Shown piece by piece: positions 1,144-28,697 of a stretch of 43,085 nucleotides of DNA. The notes beneath the pieces are model-generated. The model was not told where the DNA came from, did not search any database, and was given only the letters and a program-made list of their open reading frames with translations. Position 1 is the stretch's first letter, and each line of letters begins with the position of its first letter. Position numbers and translations under genes: made by a program. The DNA comes from a bacterium (GTDB lineage: Bacteria; Cyanobacteriota; Vampirovibrionia; Gastranaerophilales; UBA9971): NCBI GenBank assembly GCA_037147175.1, contig JBAWVS010000022.1:1-43085 (forward strand), given 5' to 3'.

Positions 1144-1198
1144 AAAACCAAAGATATAATCCCATAACACTTTAAGACACTTAAAGGGAAATTTTGCA

Positions 1199-8800: not shown

Positions 8801-8984
8801 GATTTGAAATAAGTTCAGCCTCATTGCGAATGGTTAAATAATCATAGCTTTGAGAAGACAATAACTGTATAAACTCGTGTTCTAATTGAGCTTCGCTCTG
8901 GTAAGAATCAGAACGAGCTTCTGTCGGTTTATATTCGGCAACAACCGTGCTTTCGTTTGTACTTGCAACTATGTTATAACCCAT
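5859..8984 (-). CDS. hsdR: Type I restriction enzyme R subunit
   Basis: The 1041-residue HsdR is the motor and nuclease subunit that translocates DNA and cuts it far from the recognition site. The N-terminal PD-(D/E)XK nuclease is visible as TRYDVTILVNG followed by HVELKRRG near residue 165. The superfamily 2 helicase has Walker A WHTTGSGKT near residue 325, the DEAD-like box IFDECHRSQFG near residue 423, and a late motif around LIQAFSRTNRI. A helical C-terminal domain that contacts the methyltransferase follows. The length is normal and no disruption is seen. It is the last gene of the hsdM-hsdS-hsdR operon, with its ATG directly after the hsdS stop codon. Confidence 0.95.
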   Translation of the reverse strand: MGYNIVASTNESTVVAEYKPTEARSDSYQSEAQLEHEFIQLLSSQSYDYLTIRNEAELISNLRLQLEQLNDYKFSDSEWKSFFNNNLTNKNESIIEKTRKIQADHIQILKRDNGETKNIYLLDKKNIHNNKLQVINQYEEAEGNHNTRYDVTILVNGLPLLHVELKRRGVAIREAFNQIKRYQRDSFWASSGLYEYIQIFVISNGTHTKYYSNTTRDSHIKEANSGQKTKSKKTSNSFEFTSFWADGNNKVIADLVDFTKTFLSKHTLLNVLTKYCVFTSDDLLLVMRPYQIAACERILSRIQVSTNYKKVGTIKAGGYIWHTTGSGKTLTSFKTAQLATNLTYIDKVLFVVDRKDLDYQTMKEYDKFEKGAANSNKSTRVLQKQLESDNTKIIITTIQKLGVFISKNKDHEIFKKHMVLIFDECHRSQFGDLHSQIVKAFKNYNLFGFTGTPIFAKNSASGGNPLLKTTPQVFGGEPDEEGKEVLSLHTYTIVNAINDNNVLPFRIDYINTMKEKDGTKDKQVKAIDREKALASPERISNIVDYVLDHFNQKTKRNDKSYIFNKLTNISDVITANERTNVEEIKQKVRLSGFNSIFAVSSIPVAKQYYEEFKKQLAEKRKDLTIATIFSFSANEEDPDDILLDEESFDTENLDKPSREFLEYSIQDYNAKFSTNYDTSADKFQNYYKDVSLRMKNREIDLLIVVNMFLTGFDATTLNTLWVDKNLKYHGLIQAFSRTNRILNSVKTFGNIVCFRDLQEATDKAIALFGDEKAGSIVLLKTYNEYYNGYTDDNGKHFAGYDELINKLKSIFPLGQAIIGEKNQKDFISLFGTILRLRNILTAFDDFTNDNKISERDLQDYQSIYIDLYQEYSNKEQVDKENINDDIIFEIELIKQVEINIDYILMLVAKYHKSNCEDKNILTSIQKAIDSSIELRSKKQLIESFIDTVNVSTQVEEDWKNFVNTQKETDLSTIIQEEQLKEEETKTFVDNSFRDGTLKTTGTDLDKILPPISRFGGGQRQQKKESVIDKLLRFFEKYIGLV

Positions 8985-10136
8985 TTATGCGACTTTCTCC
9001 TCGAATGATAATAATTTATCACGATAATATTCATATTGTTTTTTTCTAGCTTCAATCTCAGCAGGCAAACCTATTGAAATATCATTACACAACGCATCAA
9101 ACCTGTCTAAGATTGCAACAATACGCTCTTGCTCAAGAAGTGGTGGGACTGGAATTTGTACTTTATTTAATACAGTTTGTGTAAGACTCGGTACACCTCC
9201 AGCAGTATTAAGATTTTCTAAATGTTGCATTTTAAGATAGTAATAAATGTACTTAGGTACAACAATATCTGTATTTATATCTGTATAAAAAATTGTGTCA
9301 ACTGTCCAAAACGGAGTATCGAGATAGTAAAGTTTACCAATCGAGCCTTTTCTAGGTATAAGTACAGACGGTTTATTGTACGCAAACCTATCAATATAAT
9401 TAATAATCCCCCCTGTACCATAGACAGGGATATCACCACTAGGAAAACTCTTATAGTCTTTACCGTTTTTAATTGTAAGAACATCTCCCAAAATCATCCA
9501 ATTAACATTTTCATCATCACCAAACACAAGAAGTGAATCTCGATAATGCTCATACTGTTTTTTTCTAGCTGTAAGCTCCGCTGTAAGCTCCGCTGTAAGC
9601 TCCGTGAAATTGTCCAAAATTCGGACAATTTCACGTTGTACCTCCATTGGAGGTACAGGGATTAATATTTTTTCTAATTTAGATGGTGTTACTTCAATGA
9701 CTTTTGTCCCTTGTGCAATTTTAGCTTTTTGTGCAAAGAATGCTCGTGTTTGTAGCCAATATGCAATAAATTTTGCATTTTGATTATGCTTGAAAATCGC
9801 AGTATGTCCACCTGTAACAATTTCTTCATCGCCCAACCATGCAACGCATTTACACACATCATCTAAGTTTTCACTGGTAACAGCTATTATAATATCGTCT
9901 TTATTTACTTTTTTTAAAGTCTTTGCTAGTTCTTTTGATACAAATGATTTAGTAGTGTTTGTAAATGTTCCATAATAGGTATATATTTGACCATAATGAA
10001 TGCATTGCACTCCAGATTCGGTAAAGTCTGATTTTTTAAGACCATTACCTCTCGTAATAGTTCCAATTTCAGCCAAAGTTTTATATTCTACCCCGTCAGG
10101 ACATAATTTTTCAATTAATTCATCTAATTTACTCAT
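8985..10136 (-). CDS. hsdS: Type I restriction enzyme specificity subunit S
   Basis: The 383-residue subunit gives DNA target specificity to the HsdM and HsdR complexes. It has two variable target-recognition domains, each followed by a conserved helix. The central one reads REIVRILDNFTEL, then a TAEL repeat, then RKKQYEHYRDSLL. The C-terminal one reads QERIVAILDRFDAL, later RKKQYEYYRDKLL. It starts in a TAATG overlap with hsdM. The central spacer contains repeated TAEL units encoded by a 12-bp tandem repeat; in EcoR124I and R124/3 the number of such units changes the gap in the recognition site. The target itself cannot be predicted here. Confidence 0.95.
   Translation of the reverse strand: MSKLDELIEKLCPDGVEYKTLAEIGTITRGNGLKKSDFTESGVQCIHYGQIYTYYGTFTNTTKSFVSKELAKTLKKVNKDDIIIAVTSENLDDVCKCVAWLGDEEIVTGGHTAIFKHNQNAKFIAYWLQTRAFFAQKAKIAQGTKVIEVTPSKLEKILIPVPPMEVQREIVRILDNFTELTAELTAELTARKKQYEHYRDSLLVFGDDENVNWMILGDVLTIKNGKDYKSFPSGDIPVYGTGGIINYIDRFAYNKPSVLIPRKGSIGKLYYLDTPFWTVDTIFYTDINTDIVVPKYIYYYLKMQHLENLNTAGGVPSLTQTVLNKVQIPVPPLLEQERIVAILDRFDALCNDISIGLPAEIEARKKQYEYYRDKLLSFEEKVA
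9568..9603 (-). repeat. 12-bp tandem repeat coding TAEL units in hsdS
   Basis: Three perfect copies of the plus-strand unit GCTGTAAGCTCC lie at 9568-9579, 9580-9591 and 9592-9603. Read on the minus strand they encode repeated TAEL-type residues in the central helix of HsdS. Because the unit is 12 bases, gain or loss keeps the frame and adds or removes four residues. Confidence 0.9.
9603..9656. repeat. Two adjacent perfect hairpins inside hsdS
   Basis: A 13-bp perfect inverted repeat has arms at 9603-9615 and 9623-9635 and a 7-base loop. Two bases further on, a second 8-bp perfect repeat has arms at 9638-9645 and 9649-9656 and a 3-base loop. Both lie in the codons for the conserved central segment of HsdS, next to the TAEL repeat. 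Confidence 0.8.
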
Positions 10137-11701
10137 TAGGAACCTGCCTCGATTTCAGCGACAATCTTATCTATTTCGGTTCTTAATTCTTGTTCACGTG
10201 TAACAATTCTCTCAATTTCTTTATTAAGCTTGGTTATATCAACGATTTCCCGAGTGTCTTCTTGTTCTACATAAGTGCTTACCGACAAATTATAATCTTT
10301 TTCTTCTATTTTTGAATTTGGAACAAGTTTTGAAGCATACTCTTTATCTTTACGGTCTATGTATGTTTGAAGAATAGAATTGATATTAGCTTCTTTCAAC
10401 TTGTTATTATTCGTTATCTTTACGCACTCTTTGCTTGCATCAATAAATAAAGTTGAATTATCACTCTTTGATTTTTTCAATACCATTATACAAGTTGCAA
10501 TTGGTGTTCCAAAGAACAAATTACCGGGCAATTGAATCACGCAATCAACAAAATTGTTATCAATCAAATATTTTCTTATCTTTTGTTCAGCACCGCATCT
10601 ATACATTATCCCCGGGAAGCATACAATAGCTGCTGTTCCGTTAGTCGCAAGCCAAGAAAGTGAATGCATTATAAATGCCAAATCAGCTTTTGACTTTGGA
10701 GCTAGAACCCCGGCAGGTGAGAACCTTGGATCATTTATCAACAGAGAATTATCATCACCTTCCCAGTTTATAGAATAAGGAGGATTTGAAACGATAGCTT
10801 CAAACGGTTCATCATCCCAATGTTTTGGATCTATAAGGGTATCTCCGTGAGAAATATCAAATTTGTCATAGTCAATATCGTGTAAAAACATATTGATACG
10901 GCACAAGTTATATGTTGTAATATTTACTTCTTGACCATAAAAACCTTGTCTTACGTTATCTTTTCCAAGAATTTTTGCAAAATTTAAAAGTAATGAACCA
11001 CTACCGCAAGCAGGGTCATAAACTTTGTTTACTTCTGTTTTTCCGACAAGAGCAATTTTTGTAAGTAATTCTGAAACTTCTTGGGGTGTAAAGAATTCGC
11101 CTCCGCTTTTACCTGCTTTTGATGCGTACATACTCATTAAAAACTCATACGCATCGCCAAATGCATCGATGGTATTGTCTTTAAAATCGCCCAAGTTCAT
11201 TTTAAAAACACCATCTATCAATTTTACTAAGTTCTTATTCCGTTCAATGACAGTTCCACCTAGTTTTTTACTGTTAACATCAATATCATCAAACAATCCT
11301 TTTAAATCGGATTCGCTTTCTGAGCCAATAGCAGAATGTTCAATATTTTTAAATATTTTTTCAAGAGTTTCATTTAAATTTTCATCATTTGAAGCATTTT
11401 GTTTTACATTTTCAAATAATTCACTTGGATATATAAAAAAGCCTTTTGTTGTTACCAATTCATCCTTGGCTTCTTTCGCTTGTTCATCGCTCAATTTTGC
11501 ATAATTAAAATCTTTGTTGCCGGATTCAATTTCGCCTTTGTTGATATAATTGGTTAAATTTTCTGATATATATCTGTAAAACAATATCCCTAAAACATAT
11601 TGCTTAAAATCCCACCCGTCAACACTCCCCCTAAGGTCATCAGCGATACTCCAAATTGTGCGATGCAATTCTGTACGCTCTTGTTCTTTTTTATTATCCA
11701 T
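10136..11701 (-). CDS. hsdM: Type I restriction-modification DNA methyltransferase subunit M
   Basis: HsdM of about 521 residues methylates adenine within the site chosen by HsdS. The sequence shows an N-terminal helical domain (HRTIWSIADDLRGSVDGWDF), cofactor motif DPACGSGSLLLNF near residue 230 and catalytic NPPYS near residue 305, in gamma-class order. I chose the ATG at 11701 over an in-frame GTG at 11713 because GAGTGGAA lies at ribosome-binding distance from the ATG and the GTG falls inside that site. It is the first gene of the hsdM-hsdS-hsdR operon and overlaps hsdS by one base (TAATG). It is transcribed divergently from the WYL regulator, so the two may share control. Confidence 0.94.
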   Translation of the reverse strand: MDNKKEQERTELHRTIWSIADDLRGSVDGWDFKQYVLGILFYRYISENLTNYINKGEIESGNKDFNYAKLSDEQAKEAKDELVTTKGFFIYPSELFENVKQNASNDENLNETLEKIFKNIEHSAIGSESESDLKGLFDDIDVNSKKLGGTVIERNKNLVKLIDGVFKMNLGDFKDNTIDAFGDAYEFLMSMYASKAGKSGGEFFTPQEVSELLTKIALVGKTEVNKVYDPACGSGSLLLNFAKILGKDNVRQGFYGQEVNITTYNLCRINMFLHDIDYDKFDISHGDTLIDPKHWDDEPFEAIVSNPPYSINWEGDDNSLLINDPRFSPAGVLAPKSKADLAFIMHSLSWLATNGTAAIVCFPGIMYRCGAEQKIRKYLIDNNFVDCVIQLPGNLFFGTPIATCIMVLKKSKSDNSTLFIDASKECVKITNNNKLKEANINSILQTYIDRKDKEYASKLVPNSKIEEKDYNLSVSTYVEQEDTREIVDITKLNKEIERIVTREQELRTEIDKIVAEIEAGS

Positions 11702-11735
11702 AAATATTTCCACTCTACTATAATTATTTATAAAG

Positions 11736-11861: not shown

Positions 11862-12836
11862 ATGCGTTACGAAAGAGTAGAAGATATATTAAAACTGGCA
11901 ATTTTGCTACAAACAACCCCTTATGGTTTGTCATTATATGATATTCAGGAAAATTTCAGAGTATCACGCAGAACAGCAGAGAGAATGCGTGATGCTGTTG
12001 TTAGGCTTTTCCCGGATATTGAGTACTTTGATACACCTGACAAAATCAGGCGATGGAAACTAAACAGCAGTTTAAATCTTGTTTCTTTTACTTCCGATGA
12101 AATTGCGGAACTTGAAAACACAAAGAAAAAACTTCATGTTGATGGACTGGAAAATAAAGCTGAAATTATTGAGGATGTTATTCTTAAAATCAAAGCCTTG
12201 AACAAAAACGATATAAGCAAATTAGAAACTGATATTGAGGCAGTGATGGAAGCTGAAGGATATGCAATTCGGCAATATCCAAGATTTAAAGTTTCAAGAG
12301 AGCTGTTAAGCAAAATCAGAGAAGCAATAAAAGCATATAAAGTTCTGCATATTGTATATGAAAACAAAAACAAAGAAATTCAGGAATGTAATATTCATCC
12401 TTACGGCGTTATGTATGCAGAAAAACATTTTCTTGTAGCATATAACCCTGAAAGAAAAGCGTTAAGGCTATATAATCTCTCTAATATCAAGTCTATGGAA
12501 ATCCTTGATGAGTATTTCGAAAAAGATGAGTCTTTCTCTCTTGAGTCATACGCAAATAATTCCTTTGGGATTTATCAGGAAAAACCTGTTCCTATTACAT
12601 TGTTGTTCGATAAATCCGTTGCAGAAGATGTTAAAAACTTTCATTTTCACCCGACCCAAAAAATTAAAGAAGAAAAAGATGGCAGTATAAAACTTCAATT
12701 TAAAGCTGGTGGAATGCTTGAAATATGTTGGCATATTTTCAAATGGGGAGATAAAGTTAAAATCATCAAGCCGGAGAGTTTAAAACAGGAATATCTGTCT
12801 TTATTAAACAAAGCGCAGGAAACAGTAAACGATTAA
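11862..12836 (+). CDS. HTH and WYL domain transcriptional regulator
   Basis: The 324-residue protein has an N-terminal winged helix-turn-helix (about residues 8-65; LSLYDIQENFRVSRRTAERMRD is the helix-turn-helix core) and a WYL-type ligand-binding domain from about residue 165. The latter includes HIVYENKNKEIQECNIHPYG and EKHFLVAYNPERKALRLYNL, where the usual W-Y-L triplet is diverged to HFL. A C-terminal domain follows (LEICWHIFKWGDKVKIIKP). WYL regulators often control defence islands, for example BrxR and CapW, where they sense nucleic-acid signals. Here it sits divergent from the type I operon and its promoter carries an operator dyad. Autorepression plus control of neighbouring accessory promoters is my inference. 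Confidence 0.88.
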   Translation: MRYERVEDILKLAILLQTTPYGLSLYDIQENFRVSRRTAERMRDAVVRLFPDIEYFDTPDKIRRWKLNSSLNLVSFTSDEIAELENTKKKLHVDGLENKAEIIEDVILKIKALNKNDISKLETDIEAVMEAEGYAIRQYPRFKVSRELLSKIREAIKAYKVLHIVYENKNKEIQECNIHPYGVMYAEKHFLVAYNPERKALRLYNLSNIKSMEILDEYFEKDESFSLESYANNSFGIYQEKPVPITLLFDKSVAEDVKNFHFHPTQKIKEEKDGSIKLQFKAGGMLEICWHIFKWGDKVKIIKPESLKQEYLSLLNKAQETVND

Positions 12837-16271: not shown

Positions 16272-17096
16272 GTGTTAAGGCAAGATGGCGAATATAAAAT
16301 AGTGTCTTTTAGCGTTGGTGAAACCAAGAACGGTGACACTATGGCTAAACTACAGATAAAAGACATACAAAATGAAGAAACTTTTAACTGCATAATATGG
16401 AGCGATTTTCTTGTAAAGATTGACAAAAAAGCATTAAGAGTCGGCAATATTATCTCGGTGATTGAGTCTGAGTATAACGAAAAATTTAATAATGAAAAAA
16501 TAAAGCAGATTAAACTTATTAAGGAAGCCAGAACAGGTTTATCGGAAACCGAAAGACAAGTTTTATTTGATAAAATTCTCGAGATTATTAATTCTTTTAA
16601 AGATGACAAATTAAAAACTTCTTTGATGGAAGTTATATTTGAAAACGAAAACTTGTTTAAGACTTCTCCTGCTGCAAAAACACATCATCATAATTACATA
16701 GGCGGCTTGATTCAGCATGCTATCGAGTGTGTGGAGTTTGCAAAAGCAATATTTCCTGTGATTCCTGTTGATATAAATCATGAATTAGTGCTTACAGGTT
16801 GTATAGCTCATGATTTAGGTAAGATGTTTGAATATACTATCGACTTGGAATCCGGCGTTGTTGCCGTTGATGAAAAATTTATTAATGAGTGGATAAGTCA
16901 TATTCACTGGGGATTCAGTTGGGCAAATCAGAATGGTTTTCCTGAATTGGCACATATTATAGCTTCTCATCACGGGATAAAGGATTATGGTGCCCTCGTA
17001 GAACCTGCAACAAAAGAAGCTGAACTTTTCCACGAGATTGATATGCTTTCTTCAAGACTCGGAAGATTAAGTGTTGAAGAGTTAGAAAGAGTTTAA
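16272..17096 (+). CDS. YhaM-like HD-domain 3'-5' exoribonuclease
   Basis: The 274-residue protein combines an N-terminal OB-fold nucleic-acid-binding domain (residues about 5-75, with TMAKLQIKD and FNCIIWSD) and an HD domain from about residue 130. Metal ligands are seen in THHHNYIGGLIQHAIE, CIAHDLGKMFEY and IIASHHGIKDYG. This layout is that of YhaM, a Firmicutes exonuclease that trims RNA and in some cases DNA from the 3' end. I use the GTG at 16272 with AGGAG at 16259-16263; the ATG at 16268 is out of frame and meets a stop quickly. It is a little shorter than YhaM. It is the first gene of a six-gene plus-strand run and lies three bases before the next gene. Confidence 0.8.
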   Translation: MLRQDGEYKIVSFSVGETKNGDTMAKLQIKDIQNEETFNCIIWSDFLVKIDKKALRVGNIISVIESEYNEKFNNEKIKQIKLIKEARTGLSETERQVLFDKILEIINSFKDDKLKTSLMEVIFENENLFKTSPAAKTHHHNYIGGLIQHAIECVEFAKAIFPVIPVDINHELVLTGCIAHDLGKMFEYTIDLESGVVAVDEKFINEWISHIHWGFSWANQNGFPELAHIIASHHGIKDYGALVEPATKEAELFHEIDMLSSRLGRLSVEELERV

Positions 17097-17099
17097 AAA

Positions 17100-18254
17100 A
17101 TGCAAAATGAATTAAAAATTATACTGAATCAATTAAAAGAAAATCCGATATTTAGAATGTCTTTATGTTCAAAAGAATTGTTTCATTCTAACTTTTGGGC
17201 GTGGATGCTTGAACAATATCCGGATTCCATCAAATGTTTTGTACAAGACTATAAAAAAGATAATTATGGTGAATTTGAAAAAGTCTATAGAGAAAAGCAA
17301 AGTTTTGATCTTGTAATAGAAACAGACAAAAAATTTATAGTAATAGAAAATAAATTTAAGTCTATGCCAATCAAAGGTCAGTTAAATAAATATAGTAAAA
17401 AAGATGGAAATATTGATAAATTCATTAATGAAAGGAGTTCGGATAAAAAAGAAGTCAAATTATTAATTAGTTACATTGAGCCATATTTTGATGTAAATGA
17501 AATAGGTTGGGAGTATATAACTTATGAAAGACTTTCTGAAAAATTAAATGATTTTTTCAAAGACGTTCATGATAAAAATCCTTACATAAAAAACTACCTT
17601 GAAATGCTTAATTCTTTTATTCAAATAAAAAAACTTTTTGCATTAGAAAAAAATCCTAACTATAAAGATTTTTTTGAAATTTTTAATAATGATAAAAACT
17701 TACAAGATTTATTATCTGATATGAATTTTGAAAGCACCCTTAAAAGAATTTACATGTCAGAAGTTTATAAATATATTAGAAAAAATATCAAAGAAAAATT
17801 ACCAGATATAAGATTTTATATTAGAGATGATATTGACGAAAAAAACAATGAATTTTTAAAATTTAATAATTGTATGATATTAAACCTTGATTACAGCGGT
17901 TTGACTAAAAATGTTTTTATAGATTTTTTTGTTTATCAAGAGAAAATGGCAATTGGTTTTACGATTTCGGCTTCTCATTATAGGATTACATTGGGATCAT
18001 ATAGTAAAGAGAAGGATTTATCAAAAATTGTTAAAAATTTAATTGAAGATGAAAAATTTGAGTTTTTTAATGATAAGAATATAACCCCAAAAAATAAAAA
18101 ATATTATAGTTTTGGTGAAAATTGGAAATATCAAATTCTTCAAGAAATTGAATCTGAAAGAAAAATTTCAGAATTATCCAGTCTTCTTATCTGCGATCTG
18201 GAAAAACTCTTAAAGCATGATTTAAAGACATTACTTTGTTGTGACCAAAACTGA
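17100..18254 (+). CDS. PD-(D/E)XK nuclease family protein
   Basis: The 384-residue protein has a nuclease core near the N-terminus: ELFHSNFWAWMLEQYP is the family lead-in of PDDEXK_4-type proteins, followed by D70 in SFDLVIET and E83-x-K85 in FIVIENKFKS, with a glutamine-bearing helix after it (IKGQLNKY). The rest is an AT-rich helical region I do not recognise. Such proteins are common in defence islands and are usually undescribed in function. The ATG is three bases after the YhaM-like stop with no clear ribosome site, which suggests coupling. The SMC-hinge gene follows 48 bases on. Confidence 0.75.
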   Translation: MQNELKIILNQLKENPIFRMSLCSKELFHSNFWAWMLEQYPDSIKCFVQDYKKDNYGEFEKVYREKQSFDLVIETDKKFIVIENKFKSMPIKGQLNKYSKKDGNIDKFINERSSDKKEVKLLISYIEPYFDVNEIGWEYITYERLSEKLNDFFKDVHDKNPYIKNYLEMLNSFIQIKKLFALEKNPNYKDFFEIFNNDKNLQDLLSDMNFESTLKRIYMSEVYKYIRKNIKEKLPDIRFYIRDDIDEKNNEFLKFNNCMILNLDYSGLTKNVFIDFFVYQEKMAIGFTISASHYRITLGSYSKEKDLSKIVKNLIEDEKFEFFNDKNITPKNKKYYSFGENWKYQILQEIESERKISELSSLLICDLEKLLKHDLKTLLCCDQN

Positions 18255-18302
18255 CGTAAGCTTATGATAATATCAACATGTTAATATTTTGGAGGTAATT
18301 AA

Positions 18303-18782
18303 ATGATTCAGGCACAAAAAAATAGAATAGAAGAATTTTTATTAAATTCGAGCATTAAAGGCATTCACGGTACTCTAATAAATTGTTGCAGTATTCCCCC
18401 TGAATATTCTCAAGTTTTTCATTTAGCGTTCGGACCAAAATCAAAATATATTGTAGTAGATAATACTGATGCGGCAGCAGATGCAATAAAATTAATTAAA
18501 GAGAATAAGCTTGGTAGAGCAGTATTTATTGTACTCGATATGTTAGATCCTCATCCTGCACTAGATAAAGTTGAATTCGCTGGATTTATTGATTATTTTA
18601 TAAATTTAGCAAAATGTGATGAAATATTCAAACCTGCTTTGTATAATGCTTTAGAAAACACTATATTAGTAGAAGAGCTTGAACTTGCAAAAAATCAGTT
18701 CACTAAATTCAGAATGGTTACTTTAGATGGATGTATATTAGAGAGAGATGGTAGGATTACCGGCGGATATATACCCAATTAA
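18303..18782 (+). CDS. Free-standing SMC hinge-domain protein
   Basis: The whole 159-residue protein matches an SMC hinge, with no ATPase heads or coiled-coil arms. It keeps KGIHGTLIN (residues 19-27), the LAFGPKSKYIVVDNTDAA strand-helix, AIKLIKENKLGRAVFIVLD (residues 61-79), NTILVEELELAK (119-130) and RMVTLDGCILERDGRITGG (137-155). Each aligns in order with the hinge of bacterial SMC as I know it from B. subtilis. Hinges dimerise SMC arms and bind DNA. The GGAGG ribosome site (18291-18295) is strong. The gene lies between a PD-(D/E)XK nuclease and a UvrD/RecB-like helicase-nuclease. The function is unknown; options are a DNA-binding dimer for the neighbouring enzymes or an interferer with host or phage SMC proteins. 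Confidence 0.88.
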   Translation: MIQAQKNRIEEFLLNSSIKGIHGTLINCCSIPPEYSQVFHLAFGPKSKYIVVDNTDAAADAIKLIKENKLGRAVFIVLDMLDPHPALDKVEFAGFIDYFINLAKCDEIFKPALYNALENTILVEELELAKNQFTKFRMVTLDGCILERDGRITGGYIPN

Positions 18783-18835
18783 TCATAATAAAATTGTTTT
18801 ATTTAAATAAAAATTTTTATAGGTGACATTCAAAA

Positions 18836-21800
18836 ATGATAAATACGGCAGTTGAACAAAGAAAAATAACACCGAACTCTAAACAAATGGAGTGCATTAA
18901 AACTCTTGACGGTTCCGTTATGGTTTTGGCTGGTCCCGGAACTGGAAAAACATTTACTATAATTCAGCGTATCAAATATATGCTAGAACAGGGCATTCTC
19001 CCTGAATCTATTCTTTGCCTTACTTTCTCGGAAGCCGCAGCCAATGAAATGAAAGCCCGTCTTGTAAAAGAAATGGGAACTATTGCTTCTGCTGTAACAA
19101 TTCACACATATCACGCTTTTTGTAACGAGATTATTCAGCAATATCCTGCACAATTCGAGTTGCTGGACGGTGTGAGCCTTATCGATGATATTTCCAAACG
19201 TAACATTATGAAAGAATGCCTTGATGAGTACAAGACTACTTTTTACCGTACAAAATGGGGCGATGCGTATTACTACATCGGTGAATTACTAAAAGCAGTC
19301 GAGGAAATCAAGAAAAATCAGGTTACAAAAGAACAGTATTTTGAAACTTTAAGCTCACATCCAAACTGGCAAGGTAAGCTTGATGAGCTTTTAATTGAAT
19401 ATAAAGAGCGTGAAGCCAAAGGCAAACTGGTTAAAACATTCTTGAATAACCTTGAAACCCACAAAAGAAAGATGGGCAAGGCTCAGGAAGCTTGGGAAAT
19501 ATATGAAATTTATGACAAAAAACTAAAACAGAATAACTTTATCGACTTTAACGATATGATAAATCTTGTGCTGGAAGTATTTGACAGCAATGAGGACTTG
19601 CTTAAAAAGGCTTCAAGAAGGTATTTGTATTTTCTGATAGATGAATATCAGGATACAAATTACTCTCAAAACCAGATAGTGTTTAAGCTTGCGGAAGGCT
19701 CAGACAATGAAAACATTTTTGTGGTGGGTGATGACGACCAGATAATTTATGGTTTTCAGGGTGCACAGATAGATAACCTTGAAAAATTCCTTAAACGCTA
19801 CCCGAAAACAAAAGTTATCTGCCTTGATGAAAATAATCGCTCAACGCAAACTATTCTTAATTTAAGCTATGAAGTTATTTCGCAGGACAAGACCAGACTT
19901 GAGATTAACTCTGAGTTTGAAGATTACCAAATTTCTAAAAAACTCATTGCTAAAAATGAAAAGATTACCTGCCACGATAAAAAAGTGCGGATTCATGGCT
20001 TTGGGGATATTAAACAGGAAAATAACTATATTGTTGAAGACATAGAAAAACTTATAACTTCTCCATCCGCTCCAAAAAATGATGACGGCGAAGTTGATTT
20101 GTCCCAAATAGCAATACTTTCAAAGAAAAATTCAGAACTGGAAACATTTGCAGAGTTGCTAAAAGCAAAAAATATTCCGTTCCAGATCAAATCCAGCAAG
20201 AGCATTTTTGAATTAAGACCGTCAATCCTTATTTATTTCTACCTAAAGGCTTTGCAAAACAATGAATTGTACTCTGACAAATTGTTTGGGCTTTTGTTAT
20301 CACAGCCGTTTGAACTTGATGCAGGAGATTACAATTTCTTGCTTAATCAAAACAGGCTCAACCACAGGGATTTTATTTCCAACATAAACGAAAACATAAA
20401 CAGGGATTGGGCAAATAAAGAAAAAATTTCCAATTTTATCCAAACTTACAATGAATTAAAAGAAATTAAATCTCATCATTCCTTGAAAAATATAATCATA
20501 GAGCTGATTAACAGAACAGGAATTCTTGAATACTTCTTGAAATCAGAGATTAATAGAATACAAAACATCCTTGCTATTAAAAAGATTGTGGATGAAGCTT
20601 CAGCGTTTGCTAATTTGCATATATCTGCTAATATTCAGGACTTTATCGAGTATCTTGATATGGCATTTAACGAGAGTATTCCTATTACAATAGACCAAGA
20701 TGATTACGTGCAGAACGCTGTACAGCTTTTAACCCTGCACGGTTCTAAAGGGCGTGAGTTTGAATATGTTTACATAAATAATCTTGTGGCAAAGAATTGG
20801 GAGAAGAAACGCAACCCAAATAATATGGACTTGCCGATAGAAAAAGATTCAGATGTTTCAGATGATGAAGACCTAAAAAAAGCAGAGCAGCTTAGACTTT
20901 TATTTGTTGGGATTACAAGAGCGAAGCACAGTTTGTGTTTAACATATTCCAACAAGATAAATGGAAATGCTCAGGAGCTTACAAGTTATCTTGCAGCAAT
21001 AACAGAAAGAGCAGACCTGTTTGAAAAGTTTAATCATGAGCTGAATGACGAGGAATATTCACTTGAAATACTTAAATCTTATACAAAGCAGGACTTTGAT
21101 TATTCAAGAGCATTTATCGAAGAGCTAAAAGCAAGGTTAAAAGATTTTATCCTTAGTCCAAGTGCTTTAAACAGTTATTCGAATTGTCCGAGAAGTTTCC
21201 TATATTCATATATTCTTAGAATTCCAATACTTGATACAGAATGGGAAGCGGCAAATTATGGTAGTGCAATCCATAAAACCCTTGAATGGGCAACAACAGA
21301 AGCAAGGGATAAAGGAAATTACCCAACTAATGAAGATTTTAATGCTGCTTTTATCAAGAAACTCAACAATCAAAAATTTATATCCCAATCCAAAAGAACA
21401 GAGCTTCAGGAAAGAGGACTTAACAGCTTGGGTGAATATTATCCTAACTTTAAGCAAACTTCACCCGATAAAATCTTTGCAACTGAGTATGCTCTTGAGT
21501 TTGTTCCTGTTGAAGATAGAACTATCAAAGGTTTTATTGACAGAATAGAAATCAATAATGACGGAACGTATTCCCTGTATGATTACAAAACTGGTTCAGC
21601 TAAATCAAAATCACAAATAGCTGACGGAAAAGACTACGAATCATATTTAAACCAGCTTAGATTCTACAAATTTGCGTTTGAAGCTTTGCATACAGATAAA
21701 AAGGTTTCGCAAGTCGGACTTATTTTTGTTGAAGAACACGATAAGAGCTATTATACAAAACTTTGTGAAGCTGATAATTTATACATCAAGACAAAAATTA

Positions 21801-21913
21801 TGGATACATACAAACAAATTCGCAATCTGAATTTCCAGCCGATAGAATATGCACCTGATAAAAAATGCAAATTCTGTGAATACAAGCAGCTTTGCAGACT
21901 AGATATTTTGTAA
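18836..21913 (+). CDS. UvrD-type helicase fused to RecB-like PD-(D/E)XK nuclease
   Basis: The 1025-residue protein is an SF1A helicase with Walker A AGPGTGKT (residues about 32-39), motif II FLIDEYQDTN near 268, motif III VVGDDDQIIYGFQGA, motif V TLHGSKGREFEYVYI and motif VI LLFVGITRAKHSL. The C-terminal RecB-like nuclease has GFIDRIEI near 900 and YDYKTG near 917. Cysteines in NCPRSF (about 783) and CKFCEYKQLC (about 1010-1020) match the four-cysteine Fe-S clasp of AddB and related nucleases. It should unwind and degrade DNA ends. Unlike AddAB or RecBCD, no partner nuclease-helicase is adjacent. It follows the hinge gene by 53 bases in the same direction. Base composition is less AT-rich than the genes before it. 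Confidence 0.92.
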   Translation: MINTAVEQRKITPNSKQMECIKTLDGSVMVLAGPGTGKTFTIIQRIKYMLEQGILPESILCLTFSEAAANEMKARLVKEMGTIASAVTIHTYHAFCNEIIQQYPAQFELLDGVSLIDDISKRNIMKECLDEYKTTFYRTKWGDAYYYIGELLKAVEEIKKNQVTKEQYFETLSSHPNWQGKLDELLIEYKEREAKGKLVKTFLNNLETHKRKMGKAQEAWEIYEIYDKKLKQNNFIDFNDMINLVLEVFDSNEDLLKKASRRYLYFLIDEYQDTNYSQNQIVFKLAEGSDNENIFVVGDDDQIIYGFQGAQIDNLEKFLKRYPKTKVICLDENNRSTQTILNLSYEVISQDKTRLEINSEFEDYQISKKLIAKNEKITCHDKKVRIHGFGDIKQENNYIVEDIEKLITSPSAPKNDDGEVDLSQIAILSKKNSELETFAELLKAKNIPFQIKSSKSIFELRPSILIYFYLKALQNNELYSDKLFGLLLSQPFELDAGDYNFLLNQNRLNHRDFISNINENINRDWANKEKISNFIQTYNELKEIKSHHSLKNIIIELINRTGILEYFLKSEINRIQNILAIKKIVDEASAFANLHISANIQDFIEYLDMAFNESIPITIDQDDYVQNAVQLLTLHGSKGREFEYVYINNLVAKNWEKKRNPNNMDLPIEKDSDVSDDEDLKKAEQLRLLFVGITRAKHSLCLTYSNKINGNAQELTSYLAAITERADLFEKFNHELNDEEYSLEILKSYTKQDFDYSRAFIEELKARLKDFILSPSALNSYSNCPRSFLYSYILRIPILDTEWEAANYGSAIHKTLEWATTEARDKGNYPTNEDFNAAFIKKLNNQKFISQSKRTELQERGLNSLGEYYPNFKQTSPDKIFATEYALEFVPVEDRTIKGFIDRIEINNDGTYSLYDYKTGSAKSKSQIADGKDYESYLNQLRFYKFAFEALHTDKKVSQVGLIFVEEHDKSYYTKLCEADNLYIKTKIMDTYKQIRNLNFQPIEYAPDKKCKFCEYKQLCRLDIL

Positions 21914-21923
21914 GGAGTAAATA

Positions 21924-24869
21924 ATGGATAATAAACAAAAATTTCAAAATTATATGCTAGATTTAATAAAAAAAGGCGAGTGTGGGTCATATGAATCTAG
22001 ATGTAGAAATTTTGAGTTTTGGGATTCGTTAGAGAAAATTATTGAAACTATAACCCAGAAAAACATATTTCAAGTTAATTCAACAAATGAATTAGAAAAT
22101 ATTCTAAGAATATTAAAGAGAAATCTGGATTGGAAGCGGTTTAATGCTGGTCATCAAAACGGTATCCCTTATGCACTTTTAAATAAGCATTACAGGTATT
22201 TCATAAGTAATAATACAAATTTAACACTGCAACTTGAAAATCCTCGAACAAATGAAAATAAATCATCTGATTTAGACAAATTAAGAGAAGAACTAATACA
22301 ATTTGGAGAATCTTTAAATTCAGAGAGATTTGATAGAAATGATGGACAAAGTACAGTTTTAAAAGTAAAAAATAGCTATGATAAACAGTTTGTTGCTGTT
22401 CATTTTGATAATGCAAATAAAAATGGCGTAAGAATTAGGTTGTCAAATAAATATGTTAGCGAAAAATTAAAAAATAGAACTGAAATCGAAAATTATGAAA
22501 AAAACTTTAATTTGAAATTTCTTGTTAAATCCGCTGATGACCTAAACATAGCGAAAGAACTTATTAAAAACTCAATAGAAAACGCTATAGAGATAGAAAA
22601 TAATTTTAATGATATTGATACTTTACTTAAAAAATATAAGGAATTAAAAAATTCATCTGAATATAATGAGCAGTATAAGTGGGATTACGCTATAAAAACC
22701 CAAGGTGTATTTCAAAATTTAGACAATTTAAATGAAAAAATTAAGAGTCTTGGTTCTCAGAATTTTCAATCATTTTTTATGAGGAATAGTGGCATTAAGT
22801 GGATGGCAGAAAAACATCCTGATATTTTAATGAGTAGTTTTGAATCACTATTTAATAACAGTATGAATTTAGAAGACAGAATAAAAGGCTTTAGAGACAG
22901 TATAAAAGATACTTTAAATAATGATGAAGGTTGGAAAAATAAAGGTTTAACAGATCCTGGTATTGATACAGCATCTTTTTTTCTTTTTACAAATGATTAT
23001 AAAAATCTTTTGTTGTTCACAAAAATCAAACCCTTTAATAATTATGCGAAAAAATTTAGCATTGATTATTTATTAAAATTTGAAGATTATGAAAAACGAT
23101 ACACCGATTGGATAAATTACTGTAATAAAGAATTAATTCCTAAAATGAACGAGGTATTAAATAAAGAAAATGATCTGCTTGATGCCCAAGATTTTATCTG
23201 GTTTGTAGGAAATCAAGGTAATATTGATTTGAACGCTTTTAGAGAAAGTCTTTTAGAATATGGAAAATCTTTAGGTGCTACAATAAATGAAACTGAGGCA
23301 TATACAGCACTTAAAACAAAAAATAATATTGCAGAAGTTCATAAAATATCTGACAAAAGTAAGCAATTTAGGGTTTTGGTTTCCTATGATAAATTAGATG
23401 AAGAACTAAAGAATATAACTGAAAAAGTGCCGGATAGTTATCAATGGACATTAAATGGAAGTTTTTATGTAAATTCGGAAGAAACACTGGAGCAAGCAAA
23501 AGAACTTATTGCAAAAGTAATAAATAAAACTGAAAATGATTTTAATGTTGAGGAAAATATAATGAACAATAGCAGTATTCCACTTAACCAAATTCTATAC
23601 GGACCACCCGGAACAGGAAAAACATATCAGGCAAGGAAACTTGTTGAAACAATTTTATCACCGCAATTAAATATTCCGGTAGACGAAAAGCTAAAATTAT
23701 CTAAAATATTAGAAAATATGTATTGGTATCAAGCTTTAGCTCTTACTATGTATAGAAATGGCGAAAACAGGAAATATAAGGTTAAAGATTTAATTGATGC
23801 CCAAGAAATACAAATCTATTCAGAATTTAAAAATAGCAAAGACCTCCCTCCAACTCTTTGGGTGCAATTAAATACCAGAACATCGCCTGATAGTACGACT
23901 GTCAAAACTAATAAAGACTCAAGAATATATCCATACCTCTTTGATAAAACCGAAAATTCTGAATGGTTTTTGACAGACGAAGGTAAAAAATATGTTCATG
24001 AAGAATTGTCTGAAGTTTTAAATGAATTAAAAGAGACTAAGCAATTTGAAATTAAAGATTTTTATGAATTTATTACTTTTCACCAGAGTTATTCTTACGA
24101 AGAATTTGTTGAAGGAATCAAGCCGGTATTAACAGATAGCACTGAAACCAATGAAAGCATTTCTTATAAACTTGAAGATGGTGTTTTTAAGAAAATATGC
24201 TTAGAGGCAAAAAACAACCCTAATCTAAATTTTGTCTTGTTAATTGATGAAATAAACAGAGGAAATATTTCTAAAATATTTGGAGAATTAATTACTCTTG
24301 TTGAAGATACAAAACGCTTAAATAATAAAGAAGCTATTAATGCTCAGTTGCCGTATTCTAAAAAATCTTTCGGTGTTCCAAATAACCTCTATATTATCGG
24401 TACTATGAATACTTCTGACCGTTCAATTGCTTCTGTTGATATTGCTTTGCGTAGAAGATTCAAATTTATTGAAATAATGCCTGATTCTTCACTTGTTCCG
24501 ATTGATGTTGAAGGAGTAAAAGTCAGAGAAATATTTGAAAATTTAAACCAAAAAATATCCATATTGCTTGATAGAGACCACCAAATCGGTCATAGCTACT
24601 TTATTGGTGTTGATTCTATAGAAAAATTAGAACGTATCTGGTTTGATAACGTCATTCCGTTGCTTAATGAATACTTCTATGGCGAATGGGATAAATTACA
24701 AACAATTCTTGGTGATTTTATTTCTGTAAAAGATGTTCCGCCTGTATTAAAAGATATTTATGATGATAATAAATACTACGACTTTAAGAAACCGGAAGAA
24801 ATTGATTTTATTCAGGCAATAAAAAAACTAGAGAATAATGCTTATCATCAAACTCTTGTTGAGGCATAA
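21924..24869 (+). CDS. mcrB: McrB-like AAA+ GTPase of a type IV restriction system
   Basis: The 981-residue protein carries a McrB-type motor in its C-terminal 430 residues: Walker A YGPPGTGKTYQARK near 559, Walker B VLLIDEINRGNISK near 771 and the McrB signature GTMNTSDRSI near 825 followed by the ALRRRF arginine segment. McrB hydrolyses GTP to translocate DNA and directs McrC to cut modified DNA. The N-terminal 550 residues replace the short E. coli DNA-binding domain. They hold two similar modules of about 100 residues (about 110-220 and 435-545) separated by a helical FFMRNSGIKW-type region. These modules probably read the modification. It precedes mcrC by three bases. Confidence 0.92.
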   Translation: MDNKQKFQNYMLDLIKKGECGSYESRCRNFEFWDSLEKIIETITQKNIFQVNSTNELENILRILKRNLDWKRFNAGHQNGIPYALLNKHYRYFISNNTNLTLQLENPRTNENKSSDLDKLREELIQFGESLNSERFDRNDGQSTVLKVKNSYDKQFVAVHFDNANKNGVRIRLSNKYVSEKLKNRTEIENYEKNFNLKFLVKSADDLNIAKELIKNSIENAIEIENNFNDIDTLLKKYKELKNSSEYNEQYKWDYAIKTQGVFQNLDNLNEKIKSLGSQNFQSFFMRNSGIKWMAEKHPDILMSSFESLFNNSMNLEDRIKGFRDSIKDTLNNDEGWKNKGLTDPGIDTASFFLFTNDYKNLLLFTKIKPFNNYAKKFSIDYLLKFEDYEKRYTDWINYCNKELIPKMNEVLNKENDLLDAQDFIWFVGNQGNIDLNAFRESLLEYGKSLGATINETEAYTALKTKNNIAEVHKISDKSKQFRVLVSYDKLDEELKNITEKVPDSYQWTLNGSFYVNSEETLEQAKELIAKVINKTENDFNVEENIMNNSSIPLNQILYGPPGTGKTYQARKLVETILSPQLNIPVDEKLKLSKILENMYWYQALALTMYRNGENRKYKVKDLIDAQEIQIYSEFKNSKDLPPTLWVQLNTRTSPDSTTVKTNKDSRIYPYLFDKTENSEWFLTDEGKKYVHEELSEVLNELKETKQFEIKDFYEFITFHQSYSYEEFVEGIKPVLTDSTETNESISYKLEDGVFKKICLEAKNNPNLNFVLLIDEINRGNISKIFGELITLVEDTKRLNNKEAINAQLPYSKKSFGVPNNLYIIGTMNTSDRSIASVDIALRRRFKFIEIMPDSSLVPIDVEGVKVREIFENLNQKISILLDRDHQIGHSYFIGVDSIEKLERIWFDNVIPLLNEYFYGEWDKLQTILGDFISVKDVPPVLKDIYDDNKYYDFKKPEEIDFIQAIKKLENNAYHQTLVEA

Positions 24870-24872
24870 ATA

Positions 24873-26180
24873 ATGAAGTCTCAAACTTTTTTTGAGTATG
24901 ACTTTGCCAAAGACCAAGATGGCAAAAAGCTTGAATTAGACAGCATCTTTGAAAACGAAGATGCTAAAAAGTTTGAGCTGTTTTTAGAAAAAAATAAACT
25001 TACAAAAGTTTTTAATATTACCCAAACAAGTATTCAAGCTCAAAATTATGTTGGAGTAATAAAATATAAAAATTATCAGTTTGAAATACTGCCTAAGTTG
25101 CTGGGCAAGAATGAAGAAGACAGGGACACTATACTGAAGAATCTTTTCTATATGCTTTCTTACACAAAGCAACTTGATATAAAAGACAATGATGTTGCGA
25201 AACTTTCAAAAACGGAAAATCCTTTTCTGGAAGTTTTAATAGGTATATTTGCCTCCTCGCTCCTTGATTCATTGTTGCGATTTATTCCTAAAAACTATGT
25301 TTTGCAGGAAGATAATTTGAAATATTTAAAAGGCAAACTGAATTTTACAGAAAATACAAAGAAAAATATAATCAATAAAGCCTGTTTTTATTGTGAATAT
25401 GATGAATTCAGCGAAGATAACCTTTTAAACCAACTTTTTTATTACGTTTGCCTTATGCTGAGTCAGCTTACAAAAACAGACGAAAATAAAAGAACTCTTA
25501 AGCAAATTTTAAATATTTATTCAGAAATATCTTTTGTGCAAATTACTAAAGAAAAAATAAGAAATTTAAAACTTTTCAGAAGTCAGAAAAGTTTTGAAAA
25601 GTCCTTCAATCTTGCAAAAATGTTTATTGAAAACTCTTCTGTGGAAATAAGTTCTAAAAAATTCAAGACGATTTCTCTTATGTGGGATATGAACCTGCTT
25701 TTTGAAGAGTTTATTTATCAATATTTAAGAAAAAATCAGCATAAAGTTCCCGAAATAAGTAAAATACGATATCAAAATAACGAAAAACTTGTTAAAAAAT
25801 CAGTGAATTTGCTTGAAGAAACAAATCATAAAAGAAGTTTTAAAAATACTTATACAGATATACTTATAGAACTTTATGACGGCAGGCTTATAATTCTTGA
25901 TACAAAATGGAAATTAAATGACGGAAACAAAAACGAATTCAAAAATGCAGATATATATCAGCTATTAGCATATAAAGAAATTCATAACCGATTAAATGAA
26001 AATCAGCAAATTTATCCTGTCCTTGCTTATCCGCTAACTAAAGAAGATTTTGCTTGGCAACATGAAGTTGATGAGGGAAAAGAAGTTTTGCTTACTTGTT
26101 TTGATTTAAGGACAAATTTAAAAGAAAATTCTGAAATTATAATAAAACGTATTAACGAAATTATTAGTTGGATAAAGTAA
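24873..26180 (+). CDS. mcrC: McrC-like nuclease subunit of a type IV restriction system
   Basis: The 435-residue protein is the McrC partner of the preceding McrB. It has the N-terminal beta-rich domain (YVGVIKYKNYQFEILPKLL), a central helical segment, and a C-terminal PD-(D/E)XK nuclease with TDILIELYDGRLIILDTKWK near residues 327-346, containing the DTK catalytic end. McrC stimulates McrB GTP hydrolysis and cuts DNA bearing modified cytosine. The pair is complete. It converges on the tyrosine-recombinase-like gene with nine bases between stops, the border between cargo and the transposition operon. Confidence 0.92.
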   Translation: MKSQTFFEYDFAKDQDGKKLELDSIFENEDAKKFELFLEKNKLTKVFNITQTSIQAQNYVGVIKYKNYQFEILPKLLGKNEEDRDTILKNLFYMLSYTKQLDIKDNDVAKLSKTENPFLEVLIGIFASSLLDSLLRFIPKNYVLQEDNLKYLKGKLNFTENTKKNIINKACFYCEYDEFSEDNLLNQLFYYVCLMLSQLTKTDENKRTLKQILNIYSEISFVQITKEKIRNLKLFRSQKSFEKSFNLAKMFIENSSVEISSKKFKTISLMWDMNLLFEEFIYQYLRKNQHKVPEISKIRYQNNEKLVKKSVNLLEETNHKRSFKNTYTDILIELYDGRLIILDTKWKLNDGNKNEFKNADIYQLLAYKEIHNRLNENQQIYPVLAYPLTKEDFAWQHEVDEGKEVLLTCFDLRTNLKENSEIIIKRINEIISWIK

Positions 26181-26189
26181 TTCTGCATT

Positions 26190-27251
26190 TTACAACTCAA
26201 AATCAAAATCCACAGCCGTCTTCAGAAACTCCTTATACCTATCGGCTGTATGCTGAACTGATTTATGACCAAGTTGATTCTGGATAAAAGTCAGAGGCTG
26301 ATTTTTTTGAATCATCATAACCGCATAACTGTCTTGCAGGATTTTAAAAGTTGTTTTTTCAATTCTGGCATGTTCAATAATCTTTTCAAGATCCCTGCCC
26401 CTGATATTATGCGTATTATGAAAATTCCCTGCTCCATTTGCAAAAACAGCATTGTATCTGTTGGGTCTCCAGTTTTTTTGATAGCTTTTTAAAAACTTTG
26501 CCAGCATTTCCGGCATGTCAACATACCGAATTTTAAACGGTGGCTTTCTCCAAATAGTTGATTTGGATAAAAGGTTTTTACTTATCCTGAGTTTGCGGTG
26601 TTCAAAATCCACATCATCCCAATTAATCGCAAGCAGCTCTCCTACAGAAAGTCCTGTTGCTACAGCAGTAAGTACAATAGGATACATCGCTTTGTTAAAT
26701 TTCACCGCTTTTAAAATTTTCTTTATTTCTTCTTCGGAAAGTATTTTTAGCGAAGGCGTGTCTTTAAGCCTGTGTATTTCAGGGAATTTAAACTTGTCAT
26801 CAAATTCAAGAATTGCTCTTTTCAGGAAGAAGAATATATTTTCAACAGTCCTATGAGTATATCCCTGACTTTGAATATGTTTAATAAATTCGACAATATC
26901 CATAGGCGAAATATCAGAAATACTTTTATCCTTGAAAAACGGCAATATATGTTTATCTGTATAAATCCTGTGTCCTCTGCTTGTTGATGGTTTCCTGCTT
27001 TTAAGACATTTTTGTATGTAAATATTTAATGCATCTGATAATTTTATTCCCACAGAAGGTATTTCAATTGGTAGATCAGGTTCTTTAAGAAAAACATATC
27101 TATTGCCTGTTTTGGTACGAATGATTCCATAAAAAATAAATTCATCAAGGTAGTGTTTAACAATCTTTTCTTCGATCTCAGTCAGCAAGACCATATCGCA
27201 TAAAGTAAATTCTTTTAATCTTTTAGTAAGTTTTAAAAGCTTTTCTCTCAC
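26190..27251 (-). CDS. Winged helix plus catalytically depleted tyrosine-recombinase fold
   Basis: The 353-residue protein begins with a winged helix (residues 1-55) like that of its upstream neighbour, then a core-binding SAM-like domain (about 68-150) and a tyrosine-recombinase catalytic fold (about 165-345). The fold is clear from ATGLSVGELLAINWDDVDF and FIQNQLGHKSVQHTADRYKEF. Catalytic residues are partly lost: box I arginine is S202, and the HxxR pair is K303 and Q306, while H329 and nucleophile Y339 remain. Normal strand exchange looks impossible, so a DNA-binding or architectural role is likely. It overlaps the gene before by four bases (ATGA) and ends the transposase operon. Length is usual for integrases apart from the added winged helix. 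Confidence 0.85.
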   Translation of the reverse strand: MREKLLKLTKRLKEFTLCDMVLLTEIEEKIVKHYLDEFIFYGIIRTKTGNRYVFLKEPDLPIEIPSVGIKLSDALNIYIQKCLKSRKPSTSRGHRIYTDKHILPFFKDKSISDISPMDIVEFIKHIQSQGYTHRTVENIFFFLKRAILEFDDKFKFPEIHRLKDTPSLKILSEEEIKKILKAVKFNKAMYPIVLTAVATGLSVGELLAINWDDVDFEHRKLRISKNLLSKSTIWRKPPFKIRYVDMPEMLAKFLKSYQKNWRPNRYNAVFANGAGNFHNTHNIRGRDLEKIIEHARIEKTTFKILQDSYAVMMIQKNQPLTFIQNQLGHKSVQHTADRYKEFLKTAVDFDFEL

Positions 27252-28015
27252 CGCAAATTTACTCCTTTAATTTGGACTGTCCTGAACTGCTTGAGTTCTT
27301 CCCTTGTAAACTCCCTTAAAATCCTGTTTCTAAAGCATATATAAGATGGAATTTTGTAATCAGAATCTGGGTGTAGTTGAAAATACTTTTCCTTTGCCCG
27401 ATTTATCGCATCTACCATCGTAACTACTTCAAAGGACAGGTAAAACTCCTTGAAGTATTTGTAAATTTCTTCTTTGACAGAGCTTTTATGTCTAGTAAAA
27501 CTGGTATATCCGGCAAGAAGAGCAGCTACCCCTCCTTCTAACAGGGAATTTCTGGCTCTCAACAGACTTGAACGAGATGTCTTCATCTCCGGGAATTTTT
27601 TATTCCACTGTTTTATAAAAAACTTGAGTTTTTCTCCGCCAAGTCCGCCCGAAGCTTCCAGCACAGCAAGATATTTATCTGCCTTCTTTTTTGCCCAAGC
27701 AGGTGCATTCAAATATATCTGGTAATCCTCGTCTTTTGTAATGTCAATAACAAGCTTTTTAGGTGTAATTGGAGGAATTTTCTTATCTTCATAAGTTGGT
27801 TTTGCTTTTACATCAGTCTTGGCAGACATGTTGTCTTTTTTTTCAGGGATGTGAATGTATCTCCCCCCTGTTATCTTTTTAATAATGCCTTTATTCTCAA
27901 GGTCAGACAGGTAAAAAAGTGTTGTTTCCTCGTCAATCTCAAGAATTGCCGATACATCGTCTGATGTGAATTTCGACATCATCCTAACCAGCTTTAGCAG
28001 TTTCGTCTGTCTCAT
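27248..28015 (-). CDS. Winged-helix protein with MuA-type DNA-binding domains, no catalytic domain
   Basis: The 255-residue protein has an N-terminal winged helix (residues 1-55; FTSDDVSAILEIDEE, then GIIKKITGGRYIHI) shared with the next gene. A basic linker leads to a domain at 100-170 (APAWAKKKADKYLAVLEA, then FFIKQWNKKFPEMKTSRSSL, then EGGVAALL) of the MuA I-beta/I-gamma DNA-binding type. The C-terminal 180-245 resembles the following subdomain of the transposase. There is no DDE catalytic domain. It may bind the element ends or operator and modulate transposition, as a Ner- or repressor-like factor (inference). It overlaps the ATPase gene by 32 bases and the recombinase-like gene by four. 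Confidence 0.75.
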   Translation of the reverse strand: MRQTKLLKLVRMMSKFTSDDVSAILEIDEETTLFYLSDLENKGIIKKITGGRYIHIPEKKDNMSAKTDVKAKPTYEDKKIPPITPKKLVIDITKDEDYQIYLNAPAWAKKKADKYLAVLEASGGLGGEKLKFFIKQWNKKFPEMKTSRSSLLRARNSLLEGGVAALLAGYTSFTRHKSSVKEEIYKYFKEFYLSFEVVTMVDAINRAKEKYFQLHPDSDYKIPSYICFRNRILREFTREELKQFRTVQIKGVNLR

Positions 28016-28697
28016 CTGTTATGAACTCCTTTAAAGTTATTTCGTCTACAGTACTCAAGCCATTTGAATGAGCTATCTGCTCGGCTTTGTTAATAAGTCT
28101 GACAATCTGCCTGAACCTATTAGACTTTGTATAGATAAAACTGATAGCACATTCTGTCATTTCAACTTCTGAAAGTTGCGTTATTATTTCTTTCACATCT
28201 TTTTTTATGAAAGATTTAAACTCCACTATTTCAGAAACCCTGTCATAGAGGTGTTTGTATCGCATGAGTTTTTGTTTAGCCTTTCCCATTCCCACCATAA
28301 TTATTGGGACACCTGTTTTATCGTGTATATCCCTTATAGTTTCTATAGTTTTTGCATCAGTAGCCAGATAATCAATTTCATCTACTATTATTGGTATTTG
28401 TTTTTCGGTTAAAAGTCTTACGCATTGTTTGAACATATCTATAGAGTAGAAGTAAGGAATTTCTCCCAGCTCTTCTACAATTTCTTGAATAAGCCACCTC
28501 CCTGACATAAGATTCGTTCCCCGAATATACACAGCATCATTTTGTGCTACCCACCATAAAACAGCCTTGCTTTTCCCTAACCCCGGCTCTCCATAAACCA
28601 GAGCCATCCCCGGAACTGTTTCAGGTCTATTTATTAAGTTGTTCATCAAATTAATAAAATTTTTGACATTTTGAGTTTTTACAAATATTTTCTTCAT
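27984..28697 (-). CDS. MuB-like AAA+ transposition ATPase
   Basis: The 237-residue AAA+ protein has Walker A GEPGLGKS (residues 36-43) and Walker B IPIIVDEIDYL (D106, E107), with a sensor region IIMVGMGKAKQKL and a C-terminal helical lid (SNRFRQIVRLINKAEQIA). MuB, TniB and TnsC of this kind bind target DNA as ATP filaments and bring it to the transposase while giving target immunity. It is shorter than MuB (312 residues), lacking the N-terminal helix-turn-helix extension, and nearer to compact MuB-like proteins of other transposable phages. It overlaps the transposase by four bases. Confidence 0.9.
   Translation of the reverse strand: MKKIFVKTQNVKNFINLMNNLINRPETVPGMALVYGEPGLGKSKAVLWWVAQNDAVYIRGTNLMSGRWLIQEIVEELGEIPYFYSIDMFKQCVRLLTEKQIPIIVDEIDYLATDAKTIETIRDIHDKTGVPIIMVGMGKAKQKLMRYKHLYDRVSEIVEFKSFIKKDVKEIITQLSEVEMTECAISFIYTKSNRFRQIVRLINKAEQIAHSNGLSTVDEITLKEFITDETDETAKAG

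Follow-up and report, generated by a model that had tools for sequence, protein, structure and literature searches.

A free-standing SMC hinge protein of 159 amino acids is encoded directly behind a PDDEXK_4 nuclease gene in a mobile, transposon-borne defence island. We give even chances to the reading that it is a real, selected hinge, captured from the chromosomal SMC of its own bacterial order, and that it now acts as a small accessory subunit of the nuclease upstream. The window, by which we mean the whole stretch of 43,085 nucleotides that was analysed, carries the following features.

91–5717: phage terminase, portal, methyltransferase, Mu-F-like and neck genes
5859–11713, minus strand: type I restriction-modification genes HsdR, HsdS and HsdM
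11862–12836, plus strand: WYL-domain regulator like those that accompany PDDEXK_4 genes (WYL and WCX domains; 44% identical to its homologue in the genome G302)
17100–18254, plus strand: PDDEXK_4 nuclease of 384 aa, the likely partner of the hinge (PF14281, E 1.1e-7, above the cut-off; weak match to PADLOC PDC-S26; alignment)
18289–18302, plus strand: ribosome-binding site (GGAGGT) that serves the hinge gene, 8 nt ahead of its ATG (read directly)
18303–18782, plus strand: free-standing SMC hinge protein, 159 aa (PF06470, SMC_prok_A, fold match to solved SMC hinges)
18836–21913, plus strand: downstream neighbour, a UvrD helicase fused to a PDDEXK_1 nuclease (PF00580, PF13361, PF12705)
21924–24869, plus strand: McrB-like AAA ATPase (AAA_5, E 8.6e-15; McrB, E 6e-43)
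24873–26180, plus strand: McrC-like protein (McrBC, E 1.1e-64)
26190–30718, minus strand: mobility genes, namely an integrase, a short transposase-like protein, a MuB/TniB-like ATPase and a MuA-like transposase

As the initial annotation had proposed, the whole product of the open reading frame at 18303–18782 (ATG start) is an SMC hinge, and the profile search, the family model and the fold comparison all agreed on this. The protein matched the Pfam SMC_hinge profile (PF06470) with E 8.9e-26 and 91 bits against a cut-off of 22.5, and its residues 19–131 covered profile positions 2–114 of 116, that is, the whole domain. In NCBIfam SMC_prok_A, residues 6–156 corresponded to model positions 509–660 of 1165; because the match is limited to these positions, the protein is an SMC hinge only. 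The motifs GIHG, VTLDG and TGG are all present and heads and coiled-coil arms absent, just as had been claimed, and the window provides the hinge with neither the ATPase head (Walker A/B and signature motifs) nor the coiled-coil arms of a canonical SMC. An AlphaFold2 model of the monomer, into which 37 relatives went, had a mean pLDDT of 90.6 and a pTM of 0.82 and showed the hinge fold, with a TM of about 0.83 to solved hinges. When this model was used in a Foldseek search, the top matches were crystal structures of SMC hinges, including those of P. furiosus (3nwc, E 1.6e-13, TM 0.83), T. maritima (1gxj) and G. stearothermophilus, and the hinges of plant DMS3 and mouse SMCHD1 also appeared in the list.

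Ahead of the start codon stands a strong ribosome-binding site, TTTTGGAGGTAATTAAATG, and in-frame stops lie directly upstream. The gaps to the PD-(D/E)XK gene upstream and the UvrD-type gene downstream are 48 nt and 53 nt, respectively, and coiled-coil arms therefore cannot be hidden there. A scan for promoters and terminators gave sites no more numerous than in shuffled sequence. Dimers of hinges, both of SMCHD1 and of prokaryotic proteins, break when conserved C-terminal glycines are replaced (PMC4628070). In the alignment, the window hinge retains the equivalents of these glycines near its C-terminus (G150, G154 and G155), which suggests that it likely forms a dimer.

The same genome encodes an intact SMC of 1164 aa on another contig, followed by two genes that resemble ScpA and ScpB by position and length. 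This intact host SMC, the absent arms and the ribosome-binding site of its own rule out that the lone hinge is what is left of a broken SMC gene, and the earlier claim of a genuine standalone gene was thus upheld. The lone hinge shares 37% identity with the host SMC hinge and no meaningful DNA similarity with the host SMC gene, and a recent duplicate of the latter was ruled out on these grounds. In a tree of 60 hinges, the window hinge fell within the SMC clade of its own order (support 95/92). Its branch measures 2.7 changes per site (median end branch, 0.07) and is so long that this placement is uncertain. Among the 58 columns conserved in the SMCs of the order, 22 are lost in the window hinge. 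For a frame with the composition of the hinge gene, the chance of containing no stop is about 7e-7. The very long branch and yet intact frame argue for selection on the lone hinge, and a fold that persists despite fast change suggests a working protein that is subject to new constraints.

We then looked for further lone hinges in about 600 genomes (386 from across the phylum and 383 from the order, with some in both sets), where genome counts refer to matches at E 1e-8 or better. Lone hinges were recognised among the matches listed, in genomes with more than one match or with a short open frame, so that very divergent ones, or single ones in genomes outside those listed, may be missed. One other was found among these matches, in the genome G302. 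This protein has 162 aa, is 39% identical to the window hinge and keeps one of the three dimer glycines, two (GG) being lost. In tree tests of whether the lone hinges arose once or twice, a single clade had an AU p of 0.54. The genome G478 encodes a headless coil-hinge-coil protein of 380 aa (L071:564-1706) that groups with the SMC hinge of its own genome; the neighbours of its gene are TPR and sigma-like genes. An extra match in G486 was rejected as a lone hinge, being an SMC gene truncated by the contig end. In a tblastn search of phages and plasmids, the matches that were opened were full SMC genes with one exception, a match on a Metamycoplasma plasmid within a short ORF behind an ATPase ORF, and most of the others were annotated as SMC. 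Scans of IMG/VR gave no match, whether run with either lone hinge, their alignment, a broad alignment of hinges or one mini-head (see below), and a scan of GTDB contigs gave only one archaeal SMC, truncated at the contig end. A literature search, with subscription journals largely outside its scope, found no description of a stand-alone bacterial SMC hinge.

Both lone hinges among the matches listed (2/2) lie directly downstream of PDDEXK_4 nuclease genes, the distance being 15 nt in G302. The window nuclease keeps the PD-(D/E)XK active-site residues D70, E83 and K85, which are invariant among 17 relatives. A fold search of the PDB with the PDDEXK_4 model gave nothing significant. In PADLOC, the hinge-adjacent nuclease of G302 matched PDC-S26 strongly (E 2e-67) and that of the window weakly (E 7e-6). 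Candidates with an S number in PADLOC generally stand for single genes. The likeness to PDC-S26 lies in the PDDEXK_4 nuclease, and the difference in the SMC-derived companion genes found here. PDDEXK_4 genes are uncommon, with 90 matches spread over 71 of 383 genomes; the genome of the window has one and G302 two. Under random gene order, with about 1900 genes per genome assumed, both adjacencies would occur by chance with a probability of about 1.5e-8, a figure that is too strong because defence genes cluster; under a harsher null, with random order within islands of about 15 genes, our own estimate is about 0.004. Several observations count against a nuclease-accessory role: only two lone hinges are known, the majority of PDDEXK_4 genes have no adjoining hinge, the two PDDEXK_4 partners show no similarity in pairwise BLAST, and the G302 hinge has lost two dimer glycines.

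As side observations, PDDEXK_4 genes stand in tandem as two or three diverged copies at L076, L077, L078, L087 and L089, and a gene for a WYL regulator of 323–327 aa often comes after them. In the window, an HD-domain protein is encoded directly upstream of the PDDEXK_4 gene (16272–17096); it resembles the YhaM 3'-5' exoribonuclease (PRK13480, E 5e-22, below the cut-off).

The defence genes stand between the phage genes (91–5717) and the integrase and transposition genes (26190–30718). A search for terminal inverted repeats of the island gave only weak AT-rich matches, and the element ends were not found. The contig with the G302 hinge carries a transposase pair 57% identical to that of the window, together with type I restriction-modification-like genes. 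WYL regulators lie near PDDEXK_4 genes in most of 20 inspected loci, and for the BrxR type, about half of the WYL regulators are encoded together with a phage defence system (PMC9122601); we infer that the WYL protein controls the window island. Elsewhere in the window, a 1227-base direct repeat (35688–36914 and 41859–43085, 98% identical) holds a glycosyltransferase gene, and since the second copy reaches the contig end, it probably broke the assembly.

A comparison of G302 with the genome G407 showed the hinge gene as present and missing in otherwise matching operons. Common to both are genes for an SMC mini-head, a PDDEXK_4 nuclease, an HTH-WG protein, a WYL regulator and a PLD-like protein, whose products are about 69, 43, 76, 88 and 88% identical, respectively. 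DNA similarity runs through the mini-head gene into the start of the nuclease gene, reappears over about 80 nt at the end of the nuclease gene and sets in again exactly where the WG gene begins. The hinge gene of G302 fills the space between the PDDEXK_4 and WG genes and is missing in G407. Its presence is accompanied by a strongly diverged nuclease (43% identity, against 69–88% for the other products). In G302, the hinge is therefore a discrete, separable accessory gene.

The gene that precedes the nuclease in both genomes encodes a coil-less SMC mini-head, in which the N-lobe is fused directly to the C-lobe. SMC_prok_A is the family that it matches best (E 1e-25 for G407). Walker A is intact (GLNGTGKSN in G407); there are no arms and no signature motif, and serine stands in place of the Walker B glutamate and threonine in place of the switch histidine. 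The roles of these motifs are assigned from ABC ATPases generally. Mini-heads of about 100–180 aa were found in five genomes, at the following loci.

L141:2586-3125, L142:3949-4479, L143:3509-4018 and L144:8877-9185: mini-heads
L049:8103-8644: the G302 copy, frameshifted near L049:8240

The copies of G407, G185 and G523 are intact and that of G243 is shorter. PDDEXK_4 genes are near in all five genomes: the mini-head gene adjoins one in G302, G407 and G523, and the distance is one gene in G185 and about 3 kb in G243. The mini-heads and the hinge suggest a wider use of SMC pieces as binding modules, not motors. In the window's own genome, no mini-head was found at E 1e-6, and neither lone hinge has arms; the idea of a plain split SMC, raised in the initial annotation, found no support.

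The frameshift in G302 shows that SMC pieces do decay, and G478 has another SMC-derived headless protein; with a lone hinge that is extremely rare and fast-evolving, one might see in it a functionless passenger or a decaying SMC fragment. We regard this as most improbable, since about 2.7 changes per site have left a stop-free frame and an intact hinge profile, the gene has its own ribosome-binding site, and a similar nuclease neighbour recurs in two genomes.

The leading idea of the earlier reading was that the hinge is a DNA-binding dimer that serves the downstream UvrD-nuclease and McrBC. The tight spacing on the same strand (53 nt from hinge to UvrD, 10 nt from UvrD to McrB and 3 nt from McrB to McrC) speaks for it, as does the genome G449 (L126), where UvrD, PDDEXK_4, McrB and McrC genes stand together, in an order different from that of the window and without a hinge, so that the five genes of the window may act together as one system. 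However, relatives of the UvrD-nuclease are present in 181 of 383 related genomes, and a hinge lay beside them at 0 of 20 loci inspected; the closest relative inspected, that of G503 (75–76% identical), has an unrelated gene upstream. The hinge is also acidic, with a pI of about 5.4. We therefore hold service to UvrD and McrBC to be quite improbable, and of the recurrent linkage to PD-(D/E)XK or UvrD genes that the earlier reading had named as support for a system, only the former held, both lone hinges standing directly behind PDDEXK_4 genes. The G449 operon, which does without a hinge if it works at all, weighs against the nuclease-accessory role as well. Apart from the hinge, the co-occurrence of UvrD, PDDEXK_4, McrB and McrC in G449 and in the window (17100–26180) suggests a combined type IV restriction system.

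The accessory role of the hinge for the PDDEXK_4 nuclease is thus argued from the position of both lone hinges directly behind PDDEXK_4 genes, from the insertion of the G302 hinge exactly between the PDDEXK_4 and WG genes, from mini-heads in five genomes that all lie near PDDEXK_4, and from the retained hinge fold, dimer glycines and nuclease active site. In the mechanism we propose, the conserved glycines would let the hinge pair either with a second copy of itself or with the hinge of the host SMC, and this dimerisation would dock, dimerise or gate the nuclease.

Two further explanations address what the hinge may contact. By the first, mixed dimers with the host hinge would tether the nuclease to the loop-extruding SMC, as in a Wadjet assembled from parts, or would disable the SMC. 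The window protein keeps the expected parts of the dimer interface (GIHG and G..(I)TGG), the host SMC is intact, and plant DMS3 shows that headless hinges dimerise (PMC6718625). We nevertheless consider it unlikely, because the window hinge is only 37% identical to the host hinge, the G302 hinge has lost GG, and disabling the host SMC would harm the carrier. By the second, the hinge or mini-head would be a bait that imitates the host SMC, and a phage anti-SMC protein that binds the imitation would release or trigger the PDDEXK_4 nuclease. To our knowledge, there is no phage protein that binds the hinge, and the loss of 22 of 58 order-conserved columns is odd for a faithful imitation. On the other hand, the same nuclease family is accompanied by two different SMC pieces, only the surface can matter in a mini-head without signature motif and catalytic glutamate, and the nuclease changes quickly and is exchanged while the operon around it stays conserved (G302/G407). 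Moreover, phages do attack SMC complexes, as T7 gp5.9 inactivates MukBEF (PMC7617805). We rate the bait, too, as unlikely. A more general proposal, which we put forward tentatively and consider doubtful, is that motor-dead SMC pieces such as the hinge and the mini-head are interchangeable sensing or docking subunits, through which PDDEXK_4 would read the state of the host SMC or a phage attack.

Among known proteins, the hinge of bacterial SMC (SMC-ScpAB) has the fold and family in common with the window hinge, whose ancestry lies within the SMC clade of the order; the window protein differs in that it is a separate gene product, headless, coil-less and 37% identical to the host hinge. It is predicted to work most like DMS3 of the Arabidopsis DDR complex, a hinge protein that lacks an ATPase head, forms dimers and keeps other proteins together (PMC6718625) and that was also retrieved by our fold search. 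DMS3 is, however, a plant protein with short coiled coils that acts with DRD1 and RDM1 in RNA-directed DNA methylation, whereas the window hinge is bacterial, coil-less and encoded beside a nuclease gene. SMCHD1 likewise has a hinge outside canonical SMC that dimerises via conserved glycines (PMC4628070), but there the hinge is joined to a GHKL ATPase within a very large protein of animals. Lamassu and Wadjet resemble the window in that SMC-type parts adjoin a nuclease in defence islands. Both employ full SMC-like ATPases, and the arrangement here is indeed different, as the initial annotation had stated. In PADLOC, LmuA and LmuB of Lamassu had no match among the hinge, the PDDEXK_4 proteins and the other operon genes scanned (for UvrD, among its best 25 matches), and the same operon genes gave no match to Wadjet JetABCD (SMC-like JetC, kleisin, KITE and the JetD nuclease). 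The mini-heads match LmuB solely via the shared ATPase head.

SMC-derived parts joined with a nuclease in defence are already known, and known SMC-based immunity uses whole SMC-like motors; the new aspect is that isolated pieces occur here. If the proposed role is true, SMC surfaces alone would be useful in defence, either for docking or as mimics that reveal when SMC is under attack, bacteria would gain a counterpart of the plant headless hinge protein DMS3, and modules of dismembered SMC and PDDEXK_4 would represent a previously undescribed defence class. The G302/G407 pair and the intact mini-head genes make the idea of SMC pieces directly testable. Our results suggest that spare parts of SMC have been put to new use in bacteria, as aids or controls of defence nucleases.
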